DNA from: a virus
DNA: 23,673 bases
Direction: 5' to 3' (one strand)
Virus record (IMG/VR): IMGVR_UViG_3300028837_000954
Location: 1-23,673 of that record
Below the pieces are notes generated by a model. That model saw only the letters and a list, made by a program, of their open reading frames with translations. It was not told the origin of the DNA and did not search any database. This document shows, one piece after another, positions 5,464 to 14,532 of the stretch (positions are counted from its first letter, which is position 1; each line of letters starts with the position of its first letter). The position numbers and the translations under genes are program-made.

Positions 5464-6768
5464 ATGTTTCTTGGAATGAGAGGAAATGACGACTGGGTAG
5501 ATGACCAGCGTCCATTAAACTGGAGACAGCAAATACTGTATCTGTACCCTAACGGAATGGCTCCGTTGACAGCTATTCTGAGTATGCTTGGAAGTGAATC
5601 TGTAGACGATCCGCAGTTTCATTGGTGGACTCAGGAACAGACAGCTGTTGGTGGAGATGTGGCAGGGATTTATACACTACCTGATTTAAGTAATGCTTAT
5701 ACAACTGGTGGTGTAGCTGGAGACGTTATCTATGTCCAAATAACCACTATCCTTGCTAATCGTATCCGTGAAGGGCATCAGATTCTGCTTCGTGTTGCTG
5801 CTGACTACCGTGTTGATGTAGTTGGAAAGATCACTGGTGTAACCAGAGGCACGACGAACTCCGTGCTTGCGGTCAAGTTGCTCGAAGCTGATGATAACTC
5901 ACCTGATAATGACCTTAGTGATTCCGACACCTTCAAAATCATCGGTAATATCAATCCTGAGGGTGGTGAGATGCCGGAAGCTATTGCGTTGGATCCTGTG
6001 AAAGTTTATAACTACACACAGATCTTTCGTACGCCTTTGTCAATCACTCGAACAGCTCGGAAGACCAGGCTTCGTACTGGAGATCAATATCAAAAGATGA
6101 AGTCTGAAGCTCTTGAGATGCACTCTTGGGAAATGGAACTTGCATATCTCTGGGGTATTCGAACTGAGAATATCGGAGACAATGGCAAACCTGAGCGAAC
6201 CACTATGGGTGTAATCAACTTCATCCGTCAGTATGCTGCAGCTAACTGTGACGACTATACACTGAACACGGATTATACTGGTCTTGGCTGGACTAATGTA
6301 GCTGGTGGAATAGTCTGGCTAAAAGCTATGCTTGAACAGATATTCCGTTACGGTGCGAATGAGAAGCTCTGTCTGTGTGGAAGTGGCTTCTTGCTCGGGA
6401 TAGATGCTCTTGCAGCTGTTCATGGTCAGATCAACATACAGCCTCAGCAGAAGGTCTATGGTATGGAGATTACCAGATGGGTCACTCCATTTGGTTCTAT
6501 CTATATGAAGACTCATCCGCTTTTCAGTTATGATGCTACTACTCGTAACATGGCTGTGATTCTGGAACCGAAAGAGATGAGCTATCGCTATATAGATGAT
6601 ACAGCATTCTATGGCGAGAACACTTCTAAATCACACTCTGTTGGTTACGGACAGCGTCGAGTTGACGGCACTGATGAGGAATATCTCACTGAGTGCGGTC
6701 TTGAATTTGGTCTGCCACAGAAATGTGCAGTCCTTAACGGAGTTGGCCTAGATAATGAACTAACCTAG
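5464..6768 (+). CDS. Major capsid protein, SU10/DUF5309-like
   Basis: A 434-residue protein that I assign to the SU10-type major capsid family (HK97 fold), which builds the icosahedral head. Supporting features are the N-terminal PLTAILSMLGSESVDDPQFHWW (split here as PLTAILSMLG and SESVDDPQFHWW, about residues 34-55), an inserted beta region (RVDVVGKITGVTRGT), the FRTPLSITRTARKT segment, the long helix GDQYQKMKSEALEMHSWEM (about 207-225), and a C-terminal domain with LCGSGFLLGIDALAAVHG. Start selection is firm: a consensus AGGAGG lies 8 bases before ATG. The 61-base upstream gap with a palindrome and the terminator 22 bases downstream make this the best-delimited gene in the window, consistent with very high expression. 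Confidence 0.85.
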   Translation: MFLGMRGNDDWVDDQRPLNWRQQILYLYPNGMAPLTAILSMLGSESVDDPQFHWWTQEQTAVGGDVAGIYTLPDLSNAYTTGGVAGDVIYVQITTILANRIREGHQILLRVAADYRVDVVGKITGVTRGTTNSVLAVKLLEADDNSPDNDLSDSDTFKIIGNINPEGGEMPEAIALDPVKVYNYTQIFRTPLSITRTARKTRLRTGDQYQKMKSEALEMHSWEMELAYLWGIRTENIGDNGKPERTTMGVINFIRQYAAANCDDYTLNTDYTGLGWTNVAGGIVWLKAMLEQIFRYGANEKLCLCGSGFLLGIDALAAVHGQINIQPQQKVYGMEITRWVTPFGSIYMKTHPLFSYDATTRNMAVILEPKEMSYRYIDDTAFYGENTSKSHSVGYGQRRVDGTDEEYLTECGLEFGLPQKCAVLNGVGLDNELT

Positions 6769-8700: not shown

Positions 8701-9099
8701 ATGGATATAAATTCTGTAGTGACTCGTGAAGAGTATAATAATATGAGGAATCTAAACTACGACCAGTTCTGTGGTTACTTAATGAAGCTGGTTAAGCTCT
8801 GTGTTGAGGAGTCCCTTAGGTCTTTACCTTCTGTAATGGTTCACTTGTCTAGCCAAGCTGCTTATTTAAAAAGTTTAAGTGATAAGTTCTATGCAGATAA
8901 TAAGGACTTGAGTGAACATAGAGGAATAGTAACTAAGGTAATAGAAAAGATGGAGGCTATGAATCCTGGTGAGACATACGAAGAGGTTCTTAAATTAGCT
9001 GCTGAAGAGGCTAGGAAGATAGTCTCCAATATACCTGAGGAAACATCTTTCGGACCTAGAAATCTTAAACAGTTTGATAGCCACCTGAGGAGACTCTAA
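8701..9099 (+). CDS. Scaffold-domain paralogue of unknown role
   Basis: A 132-residue helical protein. Residues about 54-105 (LKSLSDKFYADNKDLSEHRG...ETYEEVLKLAAEEARKIV) parallel the C-terminal domain of the scaffold candidate at 4166 (FYNENEDLKPFKK...RTYAEVMAEVAPEVRKRL), with the same F-Y-x2-N-x-D-L core and TYxEV-A-E spacing. Both end in short polar tails. It lacks the acidic Pro/Thr region and the strongly basic tail. A second scaffold-like chaperone, perhaps for tail or adaptor assembly, is my inference. GGAG at 8692-8695 precedes ATG. The stop overlaps the next start (TAATG). Confidence 0.6.
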   Translation: MDINSVVTREEYNNMRNLNYDQFCGYLMKLVKLCVEESLRSLPSVMVHLSSQAAYLKSLSDKFYADNKDLSEHRGIVTKVIEKMEAMNPGETYEEVLKLAAEEARKIVSNIPEETSFGPRNLKQFDSHLRRL

Positions 9100-9596
9100 T
9101 GCGTGAGTATACTATACTTTATAAGAAGGGCTTGGCTATAGGGTTAAGGTCTTCTGAACATAATCCTAAAAATGAAGGAGCCCTTATTCAAGCAGCTGGA
9201 ATTATCCAGGAGTCGGGAGAGCTATTTAACTTGGATGAATTATCTACTTTTGATATCTCGTCTATTGAAGCTTGTGACTTTCCTTTTCCTCAGATTTTTC
9301 AGCTTCGTGAGTGGACTCTCATTTGTACTCCGACTAAGATTTACACTTATGATGGAGCTACCTTAACACTTGTTTATACGGCTGAGGAAGGTTCAACTTG
9401 GACTGTCGCTGACTTTTATAACTTTCTTGTCCTGTCAAATGGAAGAGAGCTAATAACTCTCGACCCAGAATCCGGAGACTGGTCTAAGTATCTTGACTGT
9501 GCAGTACCTTACTGTCTGTGTCTCTGTGATCTCAATGGCCAGTTGTTTGTAGGCGGACCTGAAGTTATGGTCAGTGGTGGGTGGTTAGGAGATTAA
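9099..9596 (+). CDS. Putative tail protein with beta-propeller-like segments
   Basis: A 165-residue protein. After an N-terminal region (GLAIGLRSSEHNPKNEG), the pattern FPQIFQLREWTLICTPTKIY...TWTVADFYNFLVLSNGRELI...LNGQLFVGG alternates short beta strands like blades of a propeller. Comparable segments with a W/F-P-x-P-Q-L/I-F core occur in virion proteins of related phages, so I call it a tail protein. It is short for a complete propeller and stops 2 bases before the RCC1-like gene. It may be the N-terminal part of a protein that is one chain elsewhere, or a truncated blade module. Confidence 0.5.
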   Translation: MREYTILYKKGLAIGLRSSEHNPKNEGALIQAAGIIQESGELFNLDELSTFDISSIEACDFPFPQIFQLREWTLICTPTKIYTYDGATLTLVYTAEEGSTWTVADFYNFLVLSNGRELITLDPESGDWSKYLDCAVPYCLCLCDLNGQLFVGGPEVMVSGGWLGD

Positions 9597-9598
9597 CT

Positions 9599-11035
9599 AT
9601 GCCTTATAATCACTTAATGAATGCTAGATGTTTAGATGGTTTTCCTAGATGTAAGTGGGCCAAGCTCGGTCGGACAGGGGCTTCTCAGGCGTCAGTTGCT
9701 ATAGATGAACTTGGTAGACTTTTCACTTGGGGACAGAACTACTGGGGTCAGTGTGGTCAGGGAGATCCTTGTTGGAGTGCTGGAGTAGAACTACACCCAG
9801 AGCTGGAGGAGATAGAATTTGCTACACAGCTCGGAGCTGAACGAAACTGGATTAAGTCGACTTCTGGTGAGTATTCTTCAATGGCTCTTAATACAAAGGG
9901 TGAACTCTGGGGATGGGGAGAGGCCGAAGATAACTGTGAAGCATTTGGTTTGCCTCTTGATTCAGGTGTAAGTCATACACAATGTTTTACTGGAGTTCCT
10001 ATACCTGGATCTATGAATCTTTTTTACTTCCCAGTTTTATGTACCCCAAGTTATTTGTGGAAAGACTTTGCTCACTGTTATTATTACACTCTTGGAATTG
10101 GTTTAGATAACAAACTCTACTCTTGGGGAATGAACTATGATTATGGACTTGGAGCCAGTGTAACAGAAGGTGTTGGCTTTGCGACACCTATTCTTAATCC
10201 GACTTTGACAGCAGATATTAAGTTAGTAGATTGCGAACTTATGTGTAATGCTGCTGTAACAGTTGATGATCGGGTCTATGTCTGGGGTGTTGACTGGTGG
10301 CAGAATCAAGCTTCTTGGAACTTTGATAGTGAAGTTCCTATGGAGATAACAGGTCTTGTAATTCCATCAGGTGAGACTATAGTTAGTATATCTGTTTCAT
10401 ACTGGCTTGGTGTAATAGTACTTCTTTCTAATGGAGAACTTCATGCAGCTGGTAGTAGTTTTTTGTTTGGAGATCAAGGTGTAGCCTACCCAACTGGTAC
10501 TCAAACTTTTCAGCGAGTTACTTGTTTCGATCCTAAGAAGATAGTTATGGCGAAGATCACAGCCCTTGGGGCATCTGCTCTCTGGGTAATAGACGAGAAT
10601 GGAAATATCTGGGGATGGTCTGAGGGAAATGATCACTTTGTAGGGAATGACCCTGACCCAAGCCCAGATTGGGAACTCCCTAATTTAATTGCTTCTGAAT
10701 ACGAAGGTCAGAATGTATTTATAGACGCTGTACTTAATACACATAATATCACCTTTCAGGCTATAGATGATAGAGGTTATCTTTGGACTTGGGGTTGGCA
10801 AGGTTGGGGACCTCACTTAGCCATAGGTGCTAAAGGTGAAGCAGCTGATGTAGATCCTTATATTACAGATATAGTTATATGGAGATTCATTGCTGGCTAT
10901 GCAGAACCCCCACTTGATTATCGAGGTGAATTCCTTTCCCACAATACGCTTCCAACTGACGAATCAGACTATCTCCAACCTCTCCCTCAAATGCTACGCC
11001 ATAAACCTTGTGGGCACTGGCACTTACGTCTGTTT
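9599..11035 (+). CDS. RCC1-repeat beta-propeller tail protein (3' end interrupted by adapter)
   Basis: The start is ATG at 9599, after TTAGGAG at about 9585; a GTG at 9581 is in frame but lacks a better site. There are 479 visible residues. Seven RCC1-type repeats are readable: SVAIDELGRLFTWGQN, SMALNTKGELWGWGE, TLGIGLDNKLYSWGMN, AAVTVDDRVYVWGVD, VIVLLSNGELHAAGSS, ALWVIDENGNIWGWSE and TFQAIDDRGYLWTWGW, at roughly residues 35, 97, 165, 220, 270, 325 and 380. Seven is the number that closes an RCC1/UVR8 propeller. In this context a receptor-binding or tail-surface role is likely, not chromatin regulation. The real sequence ends at 11035, where adapter sequence begins. The true C-terminus is unknown; the next segment may be its continuation. 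Confidence 0.75.
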
Positions 11036-11107
11036 CTGTCTCTTATACACATCTCCGAGCCCACGAGACGCTACACTATCTCGTATGCCGTCTTCTGCTT
11101 GAAAAAA
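11036..11107 (+). other. Illumina Nextera adapter left in the assembly
   Basis: CTGTCTCTTATACACATCT (11036-11054) is the Nextera mosaic end. It is followed by CCGAGCCCACGAGAC (11055-11069), an 8-base index GCTACACT (11070-11077) and the P7 segment beginning ATCTCGTATGCCGTCTTCTG (11078-11101), then six A. The order is that of adapter read-through at an insert end. It is not biological. Reading frames crossing it give the familiar contaminant peptides (SLIHISEPTRR, SYTHLRAHET, LLYTSPSPRDA). Confidence 0.98.
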
Positions 11108-12315
11108 CAACAGATACTGGATGTGAGGTTATAGTTTTCGACTATGATATAGATACTAATATATGGACTTTAGCATCATATACAGAACTTGTAAATGCAG
11201 CTAATGCACCAGGTGGGGCGTCCATCTATGACGACACTATGATATTTGCCAACTGGAAGGCTGATGCTTCAGGTAAAAGGTTTAATGAGATCTATACAAA
11301 CTTCTGTCTTGGTGTCTGGGTTTGGGACAAAGGTAATTCCTATGACTTGAATTATACAGAGTTTGCTAGTAAAGACGATATGTATATGCAGGGAAAGGCA
11401 GCTGCTTATTCAGGTGGTGTTGCAGCTGTTGCATATGAAAATAGTGCAGGGCAATTATTAGTTCAAGTAACTACTGACTATGGAGCTACATGGAACTTAA
11501 GAAAGACGGTAGGAGTTGATGCTCTTAGGGAAGACTATAGTCTGTGTATTGACAAGAATGGTTACATATTTCTTGCTCATCAGATATCTACATCAGCAGT
11601 AATGGTAGAACGTTCGATAGATAATGGTCTAAACTGGACAACCAGAATTGCTAGTAATTATATGATACCTGATATGACGAGTTTAAAGACAGTAGCCGAC
11701 AACGATATGTTGTTTCTATTTGCTCATAGTGCTGTTGGGTCTGCCATAGAAAGAAGCTCCAATGGTGGAACTAGTTGGAGCACTATCTCTGGCGAACCTT
11801 ATGCAAGTGCTCGTGTGTCATCTGGCTGTAATGTAGCTGATGGTCATTCTGATATAGCATTTGTTACAGCTGGAATTGATCTTAACAATTATCTCTATGA
11901 CACAGACTACGGTGGCTATAACTGGCTTGAAAGAACTATCCCTCAAATAAGTGATGAAGGACTTGAAATAAACACTTACCAAGGACCCTACTTAGCTGAT
12001 TTAGCTGGATATAATGGAAGGTTTGCTTACTCAGCTTACACTTTTTACACAGTTCCTGTACCATATGTAGCAGTAGCTTTATCTCCAGATCGTGGACAGA
12101 CTTGGGCTGTAAGGGGAACTCCACTTGGGTGGGCTCTTAATGCTAATGAGTTGGGAGATTTCCGTGGCTGCCCATTGTTCTGTTTAACTGACGTACCTCA
12201 CTTAAATCACATCTGGACATTTGAAAAGAGTAATTGGGCAGCTGAGTTTGTGAAACAGAAAGATAAGTACAAGGTTGAAAGACCTTGTATCTGTCCTCCG
12301 TATAGAGGTATATAA
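11107..12315 (+). CDS. Asp-box (BNR) repeat tail protein, 5' end missing at the adapter
   Basis: About 402 residues are readable after the adapter, with no valid start. It carries repeated Asp-box motifs, S/T-x-D/N-x-G-x-x-W: TTDYGATW, SIDNGLNW, SSNGGTSW, DTDYGGYNW and SPDRGQTW. These turns mark sialidase-like beta propellers, which in phages occur in receptor-binding or glycan-interacting tail proteins. The sialidase catalytic Arg triad and Tyr were not identified, so I claim no enzyme activity. Upstream, VIVFDYDIDTNIWT resembles a propeller strand. If the adapter plus a few bases replaced little real sequence, this would be the second half of the RCC1 protein (a join resuming at 11107 keeps the frame). 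It may equally be a chimeric join. Confidence 0.65.
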   Translation, partial: TTDTGCEVIVFDYDIDTNIWTLASYTELVNAANAPGGASIYDDTMIFANWKADASGKRFNEIYTNFCLGVWVWDKGNSYDLNYTEFASKDDMYMQGKAAAYSGGVAAVAYENSAGQLLVQVTTDYGATWNLRKTVGVDALREDYSLCIDKNGYIFLAHQISTSAVMVERSIDNGLNWTTRIASNYMIPDMTSLKTVADNDMLFLFAHSAVGSAIERSSNGGTSWSTISGEPYASARVSSGCNVADGHSDIAFVTAGIDLNNYLYDTDYGGYNWLERTIPQISDEGLEINTYQGPYLADLAGYNGRFAYSAYTFYTVPVPYVAVALSPDRGQTWAVRGTPLGWALNANELGDFRGCPLFCLTDVPHLNHIWTFEKSNWAAEFVKQKDKYKVERPCICPPYRGI

Positions 12316-12338
12316 GATCGTTTAATTTTTAAACAAAC
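12316..12338. repeat. Dispersed palindrome copy 4
   Basis: Arms GATCGTTTAA and TTAAACAAAC around TTT, with two arm mismatches in the outer four positions and a perfect core. It starts at the base directly after the TAA of the Asp-box gene and occupies about half of the 44-base gap. Centre 12327. Confidence 0.9.
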
Positions 12339-12359
12339 ATAACCAGAAAGGAATTAAAG

Positions 12360-12791
12360 ATGTCTTCTGAAATAGCTAATAATTGGAAAGAGACTTCAGC
12401 TTATGGCACTCATAACTTTAGCTCTGATGCTTTTAAGATTATTCTAATGGAACCAGGATTTTCGTTTAGCAGATCAGCACATGAGGTTTATGCAGATGTA
12501 TCTGCATTTGAGCTTCCTACAGCTTATGGTTACACAGCTGGTGGGCAAGCTTTGGCAGGTGTAGCAATTACAAATGATGCTGTATTAGCAGCTGCCATTA
12601 TAAGCTGGAACAATGCCTCTTGGGTTATCGCTGGAGGTGATCTGCAGACAGATGGTGCTATAATCTTTGACGATACAATAGCAGCCCCGGACATTGATCC
12701 AATAGTAGGTTTCATAGACTTTGGTGGAACACTTACAACCTACAATGGTGGAACTTTTACGGTAGCTAATATTGCAGTGGCTTATACCTAG
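12360..12791 (+). CDS. Phage virion protein of unknown position (tail/fibre associated)
   Basis: A 143-residue protein. The pattern FKIILMEPGFSFSRSAHEVYADVSAFELPTAYGY (residues about 25-58; read it as FKIILMEPGFSF, then YADVSAFELPTAYGYT), then LAGVAITND, an ISWNNASWVIAGG strand pair, GAIIFDDT, VGFIDFGG and a C-terminal GGTFTVANIAVAYT, is one I know from many phage structural clusters, where it is annotated as a hypothetical virion protein. It is all-beta, without signal or membrane segment. Its place between tail genes suggests a tail or fibre component. AAGGAA precedes the start, and a 10-base gap leads to the next gene. Confidence 0.6.
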   Translation: MSSEIANNWKETSAYGTHNFSSDAFKIILMEPGFSFSRSAHEVYADVSAFELPTAYGYTAGGQALAGVAITNDAVLAAAIISWNNASWVIAGGDLQTDGAIIFDDTIAAPDIDPIVGFIDFGGTLTTYNGGTFTVANIAVAYT

Positions 12792-12801
12792 GAGATAGAA
12801 A

Positions 12802-14532
12802 ATGGCTTGGTATGAAGTAGATAGTCTTACTATAAATACTGGGAGTATAGCTTGGGGTGACCTAGCTAGAACTCATACAGATGATGGAAATAAACTAGGG
12901 CTAAATGAAGTAGCTGCAGCCCCTGGATTTGACTATGACTTTGTATTTGAAAGTATCCCAGGTGCAATGACTCATTTTAGATTTAAGATGAATGGGTACT
13001 ATGAGGGTAGTGTAACTCATACAGTATTAGCCCAAGCGTGGAATTATACTCTATCTAAATGGGTGTCTTTGGGTCTGTTACTAGATCAATCTTCAGACCA
13101 GACATACTTGTTTCCTACTATCCCATCATCTGATTATGTCAGCGGTGGTCAGGCAAAGATTAAGTTCCTTCATGTATCCAGTGGAACTGTAGGACATTAT
13201 CTCAGGATTGATCAGCTTATTATAGAGAACATGGGAGTTGATGTTACTACACCTGTTCCCACTACACCAGGACCAACAACTGCCCCTCCGACCACAGCTG
13301 TCCCAACAACAAATACCTTCACTACACCTGCACCTACATCACCTATTCCATCTACTACACTTGCACCTACTACAGTTGCTGTAACAACTGCTGTTCCAAC
13401 GACTACATTGACGACTACTGCTCCTACTACTCCTCCACCTCATAGCAGTGAGCTTGATGTTACCTTTAATTGCTTCGGTAATAACTATGCAGGTGTCTTG
13501 GTTATTGAGTTGACTATCGAAGGTCACTCACTTAGCGCTTCCTATGGTCTTGCTGATTTAGAACTCTCAATACCTATAACAATTTCTGGTAATGTTCCCT
13601 TGTCAGGTCTTTATGCTTTAGATGATCTGGAGTTGATTGTAGAGACTTCGATCAGTGGTTGGGGTGTAGCTAATGAGGAAAGGAAAAATTGGGTAGGTTG
13701 GAGTAAGATAGGTGATGTAAGCTTTGAGCTTGACTTGGTAAATGATGCAGGATTCAGACCTATGTCGTGGCCTGGGTATGTTTATCAGGTTAGGAAACTA
13801 GACAAGAATGCTGTTATCTATGGGAGTGGTGGTGTAACAGTTGCTTATCCAGTTGATTCACCTATGCCCACTTTTGGGTTTAAGGAGATATCAAACATAG
13901 GGATTAAGAATAAGACAGCTGTAGGTGGAGATGAATTTGTGCACTTCTATATAGATGTTCTTGGGTGTCTTTATAAGGTAACAACTGAAGGAGTCGAAAA
14001 TCTCGGTTATGAGGAATTTTTGCTTCCGCTAGTTAATCCTGTATTAACTTGGGATGCAGCCAAGCGTAGACTTCATATAAGTGACGAGTCAGTTGGTTAT
14101 ATTTATAATGAAGAAACACTAACAGGTGGTTATGCAAACTTGACTGGTCTCTATCGAGTAAAGGAAAATCTCACAGGTGTTTCACCTGATGAGTTAATAG
14201 CAGAACCAGTTGAAATCTGTACTGACATAATAGACTTCAAGCGTCGAGGACTTAAATCTATTGAATCTATGCAGTTCGATGCTATTTCCGAAGTACCATT
14301 GTTTGCAGCTATTGATTATAGATATGATAAGAAGGAAGACTTCAGAACCACTGAATGGTCTCCCTTGAATAATGAAGGAGTTGTTCATAGACGAGCAGCT
14401 GGAGTTGAGTTTAGAATTAGATTGAAAGGTCTTGATCATGGAACTTTTGACTTTTCTTATATCAGTATCCAATTCAAGTTCATCGACCAGCGCTTTACGA
14501 GAGACCCAAAAGGAGAAATAGATGTTTATTAA
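12802..14532 (+). CDS. Modular tail protein: beta-sandwich, PTT linker, nozzle-like C-terminal domain
   Basis: A 576-residue protein. Residues 1-150 look like a jelly-roll (FRFKMNGYYEGSVTHTV, then HYLRIDQLIIENMG), the shape of many carbohydrate-binding domains. Residues about 152-213 are a Pro/Thr linker with loose PTT repeats. Two short similar beta units follow (LSASYGLADLELSIPITISG and LSGLYALDDLELIVETSISG, about 241-287), a direct internal duplication. The C-terminal part ends in EFRIRLKGLDHGTFDFSYIS and the strands QFKFIDQRF, which resemble the closing domain of podovirus tail nozzle/stabilisation proteins. I infer a tail tip protein with an exposed binding domain. AGGAGAT precedes ATG; the last 11 bases overlap the next gene. 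Confidence 0.6.
   Translation: MAWYEVDSLTINTGSIAWGDLARTHTDDGNKLGLNEVAAAPGFDYDFVFESIPGAMTHFRFKMNGYYEGSVTHTVLAQAWNYTLSKWVSLGLLLDQSSDQTYLFPTIPSSDYVSGGQAKIKFLHVSSGTVGHYLRIDQLIIENMGVDVTTPVPTTPGPTTAPPTTAVPTTNTFTTPAPTSPIPSTTLAPTTVAVTTAVPTTTLTTTAPTTPPPHSSELDVTFNCFGNNYAGVLVIELTIEGHSLSASYGLADLELSIPITISGNVPLSGLYALDDLELIVETSISGWGVANEERKNWVGWSKIGDVSFELDLVNDAGFRPMSWPGYVYQVRKLDKNAVIYGSGGVTVAYPVDSPMPTFGFKEISNIGIKNKTAVGGDEFVHFYIDVLGCLYKVTTEGVENLGYEEFLLPLVNPVLTWDAAKRRLHISDESVGYIYNEETLTGGYANLTGLYRVKENLTGVSPDELIAEPVEICTDIIDFKRRGLKSIESMQFDAISEVPLFAAIDYRYDKKEDFRTTEWSPLNNEGVVHRRAAGVEFRIRLKGLDHGTFDFSYISIQFKFIDQRFTRDPKGEIDVY

Follow-up and report, generated by a model that had tools for sequence, protein, structure and literature searches.

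What are the 72 bases at positions 11036-11107 of this contig, which lie between two open coding segments, and did those segments once form a single gene? The window, here the complete virus record of 23,673 bases, carries at this place a Nextera i7 adapter, oriented as in a read that leaves a short insert at its end. The original prediction had put a transposase end, an index, a P7 segment and an A run at 11036-11107, and all four were found there. The adapter parts and the two segments of the interrupted gene are as follows.

9599-11035, + strand: 5' part of the broken gene, an RCC1-like propeller ending in RHKPCGHWHLRLF (Pfam matches and alignment to the relative L160)
11036-11069, + strand: Nextera mosaic end (19 nt) and i7 stem (15 nt), CTGTCTCTTATACACATCTCCGAGCCCACGAGAC, exact over 34/34 bases
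11070-11077, + strand: 8-nt i7 index GCTACACT, one substitution relative to GCTACGCT
11078-11101, + strand: P7 flow-cell sequence, reverse complement, ATCTCGTATGCCGTCTTCTGCTTG, exact over 24/24 bases
11102-11107, + strand: AAAAAA run after the adapter, the probable seam with the right flank, in which some of the A may be native
11113-12315, + strand: 3' part of the broken gene, a BNR-like domain (46% identity to L160:12134-13357; weak BNR match)

The reverse complement of P7 begins exactly 8 nt past the i7 stem, which is the spacing of the Nextera i7 oligo. Neither the mosaic-end 19-mer nor the P7 24-mer is expected by chance (0 occurrences expected and 0 seen in 100 shuffles, for each). No other adapter was found in the window, where no 12-mer of the tested Nextera and TruSeq oligos occurs elsewhere. 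The 72 bases are therefore a built-in laboratory adapter, that is, a data error and non-viral DNA, and there is nothing novel in the adapter itself. With the exact Nextera i7 parts in their proper order, the predicted adapter artefact, and with it the false fusion or domain end at this place, is upheld.

The adapter breaks a gene. The upstream ORF opens at a GTG at 9581 and reads across the adapter to 11134; the ATG at 9599, which follows the stop of the upstream gene, is the likelier start. Its 5' part matched the Pfam families RCC1_2 (3.8e-10) and RCC1 (9.3e-08). The reading frames differ between the left and right sides of the adapter, the frame of the 3' part having been displaced by the adapter together with the lost bases. 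As had been foreseen for proteins from this contig, adapter peptides appear in the ORFs that span the site: LSLIHISEPTRRYTISYAVFCL closes the upstream ORF and VSYTHLRAHETLHYLVCRLL opens the downstream one, and annotation of the record would give proteins with LSLIHISEPTRRYTISYAVFCLKKQQILDVRL at the end or the adapter-derived VSYTHLRAHETLHYLVCRLLL at the beginning. A literature search for the adapter peptides returned no match. The gene had been described as a tail gene, of which the break is evident; no tail family matched its domains, and a role in the tail is plausible from its position in the structural gene block.

Whether the two segments belong together was decided by a relative, L160 (IMGVR_UViG_3300022540_000057), the sole intact relative found, at ~50% identity. 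This contig was reached through the major capsid protein (5464-6768), which brought in 80 related loci. L160 contains matches to both flanks in one uninterrupted ORF of 1007 aa (10340-13363). Residues 9-485 of the upstream protein align at 51% identity to L160:10643-12025, and residues 5-398 of the downstream protein account for the 46% match to L160:12134-13357, both in frame +2. The upstream alignment reaches the last codon before the adapter (RHKPCGHWHLRLF in the window, RHKPCGHWHKRLF in L160), and the downstream alignment begins at DTG, 11 bases past the end of P7. Between the aligned blocks L160 has 108 bp and the window 77 bp; the adapter takes up 66 of the latter and the A run as many as 6 more. 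With L160 as the guide to length, we estimate that ~97-103 native bases would have been lost from the window gene; this size is an estimate because it comes from a single intact relative at ~50% identity. Judged from L160, the intact gene would encode an RCC1-type propeller and, C-terminal to it, a BNR-like domain. The L160 ORF resembles the window gene in its position, its two domains and its 46-51% identity to the flanks, and differs in being uninterrupted and in having an extra Thr/Pro-rich N-terminal segment; L160 also has an additional 214-aa gene ahead of this ORF.

The surrounding genes tell the same story on both sides of the break. L160 keeps the order of those at 8701 and 9099, before the adapter, and at 12360, 12802, 14522 and 14979, after it, and for each of these six neighbours it ranks first or within the top three relatives. 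Since a single ORF of L160 covers both flanks, with order and frame unchanged, and the neighbouring genes match on both sides, the segments represent one gene with ~100 lost bases, one of the two alternatives originally offered. The other, a chance join by way of the A run between non-adjacent pieces, perhaps from two different viruses, did not hold up. The A run is indeed a weak anchor, with four other runs of A6 or longer in the window, and metagenomes permit chimeric joins. Against this stand the uninterrupted ORF of L160, with the two matches 108 bp apart, and a gene order that agrees with the same relatives on either side of the adapter. The collinear neighbours and the place of L160 among the three best relatives on both sides make a chimera of distant viruses improbable. 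A mixture of two close strains at the join is possible.

The single broken gene leaves the question of how an adapter came to lie within it, for which copies elsewhere are informative. The identical 34-mer of mosaic end and stem occurs in at least 120 IMG/VR stretches. In many of these other copies the 34-mer is followed, as in the window, by index, P7 and A run in that order, and other adapter-bearing contigs have 1-15 A after P7, followed in some by C. Not counting that of the window, the matches listed comprise 123 copies, of which 121 are at most 60 bp from a stored end (median 17 bases); against this background the internal copy of the window, 11.0 kb from the left contig end and 12.6 kb from the right, is unusual.

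We also found a second internal Nextera 34-mer, at L060:4953-4986 (IMGVR_UViG_2767802081_000001). As in the window, this adapter is internal to its contig and is flanked by coding sequence whose frame differs from one side to the other; unlike that of the window, it consists of mosaic end and stem alone, without P7 or an A run after it. A query around this copy matched 34 GenBank phage records (INPHARED). In the best 5 of the 34 the match was limited to 34-37 adapter bases, located close to a record end or within ~100 bases of one; LT996076.1 and LT985592.1 are GenBank phage records with such adapter-only matches.

The index of the window copy differs from those of its counterparts. Among 42 full adapters with an exact P7, GCTACACT was found solely in the window; the other 41 all carry one of 11 indices, and GCTACACT is not among the 11. 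It lies one base from GCTACGCT, an index present in 5 other adapter-bearing contigs of the collection. The predicted difference of one base was borne out, the two differing by one substitution. The index may be the one named N709; a literature search for the index pair gave no match. Because 41/41 other adapters show the 11 indices and 0.4% of random 8-mers fall within one base of any of them, the mismatch points to an error of sequencing or synthesis, which was probably kept because few reads cover this path.

Taken with the gene structure, these observations favour, with a probability of about 0.96, a Nextera read-through that was built into the contig and whose end was then linked to the right-hand piece, from the same phage. 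A tagmented library molecule would have carried a short insert ending at base 11035, and the read would have run past this insert through the i7 adapter, index and P7 into the A run beyond the fragment end. Reads would have been incompletely trimmed, so that in the assembly the left piece would have kept this tail as its end. A point against this account is that nearly all other listed copies sit at contig ends, so that an internal adapter calls for one more step, in which the assembler would have connected the left tail with the right-hand piece of this phage's genome. The A run or a scaffold seam is the most likely place of that join, which may have used a few shared A or paired reads. The outcome would be one gene of ~900 aa (RCC1-like propeller and BNR-like domain) with ~100 native bases fewer, 66-72 foreign bases and a shifted frame.

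Two natural origins fare far worse than read-through. A Tn5/IS50-like insertion into the phage genome might be suggested by the first 19 bases of the insert, which belong to the Tn5 end family. These bases, however, match the engineered mosaic end with 0 mismatches and are followed by the Illumina index and P7, and they show 3 and 4 mismatches to the natural Tn5 outer and inner ends, respectively. A Tn5/IS50 insertion would have two ends around a transposase and a 9-bp target duplication; the insert has a single engineered end, without a second end or a transposase, and the 365 bases that follow contain no target-site duplication of the 6-12 bp before it. An origin by natural Tn5 insertion was therefore rejected on the P7 and stem sequence and the missing duplication, and the P7 sequence behind the mosaic end in itself excludes a natural transposon, making this origin extremely unlikely. 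That the virus naturally carries the adapter sequence, for which nothing speaks beyond its occurrence in the assembly, has practically no chance of being true, since the sequence is that of a synthetic oligo, which many unrelated viral contigs carry at their ends and which GenBank phage records also contain, and the insert shifts the frame of a gene that stays open in the relative.

Adapter contamination concentrated at contig ends has been published for microbial genome databases (PMC11536531), where Moeller et al. (2024, BMC Genomics) counted the TruSeq AGATCGGAAGAG. In both cases untrimmed adapter sequence has been built into contigs; theirs is TruSeq at contig ends, whereas that of the window is Nextera i7, lies well inside a viral contig and spans a join. 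A screen that trims contig ends would miss the adapter of the window because it is internal, and the second internal case described above suggests screening viral collections for adapters over the whole length of their contigs. As it stands, the record gives rise to two false proteins with adapter peptides, and both the gene boundary and the frameshift that it shows at this place are false. The significance of the finding is that of a data-quality warning only.

Further relatives of the broken gene were sought in several ways. Neither flank protein, used alone as query, brought up a relative among viral contigs or phage records, and a search with the large virion protein likewise found none. 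Profile searches for further intact copies recovered only the contig of L160 again and distant RCC1 proteins, and no intact copy in bacterial and archaeal genomes. Proteins with a CGHWH motif gave weak scores against the downstream domain (best E 1.3e-05, with filters off and a tiny database) and were not relied on.

The slot between gene 9099 and genes 12360/12802 (window 9099-12800; loci L122-L201) is variable among the relatives. Of the 31 loci compared, some have almost nothing in it and others have different proteins, many with an HxxCGHWHK-like motif (17 places in 16 loci); the RCC1-BNR version was seen in the window and L160. As a tentative and rather doubtful suggestion, the intact RCC1-like and BNR-like protein may be a rare occupant of a variable slot in the structural block, perhaps a host-recognition module swapped between phages.

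Other features of the window were recorded in passing. An ORF at 2-1246, which runs off the window start, consists almost wholly of PTTLxPTT repeats, and the gene at 12802 and the N-terminal part of the L160 protein contain similar Thr/Pro-rich stretches. At the right end, a DUF3987 gene lies on the opposite strand (22319-23575, - strand), and none of the 80 related loci matched it. Among named phages the nearest is Desulfofustis phage LS06-2018-MD01, whose major capsid protein shares 51% identity with that of the window (5464-6768).
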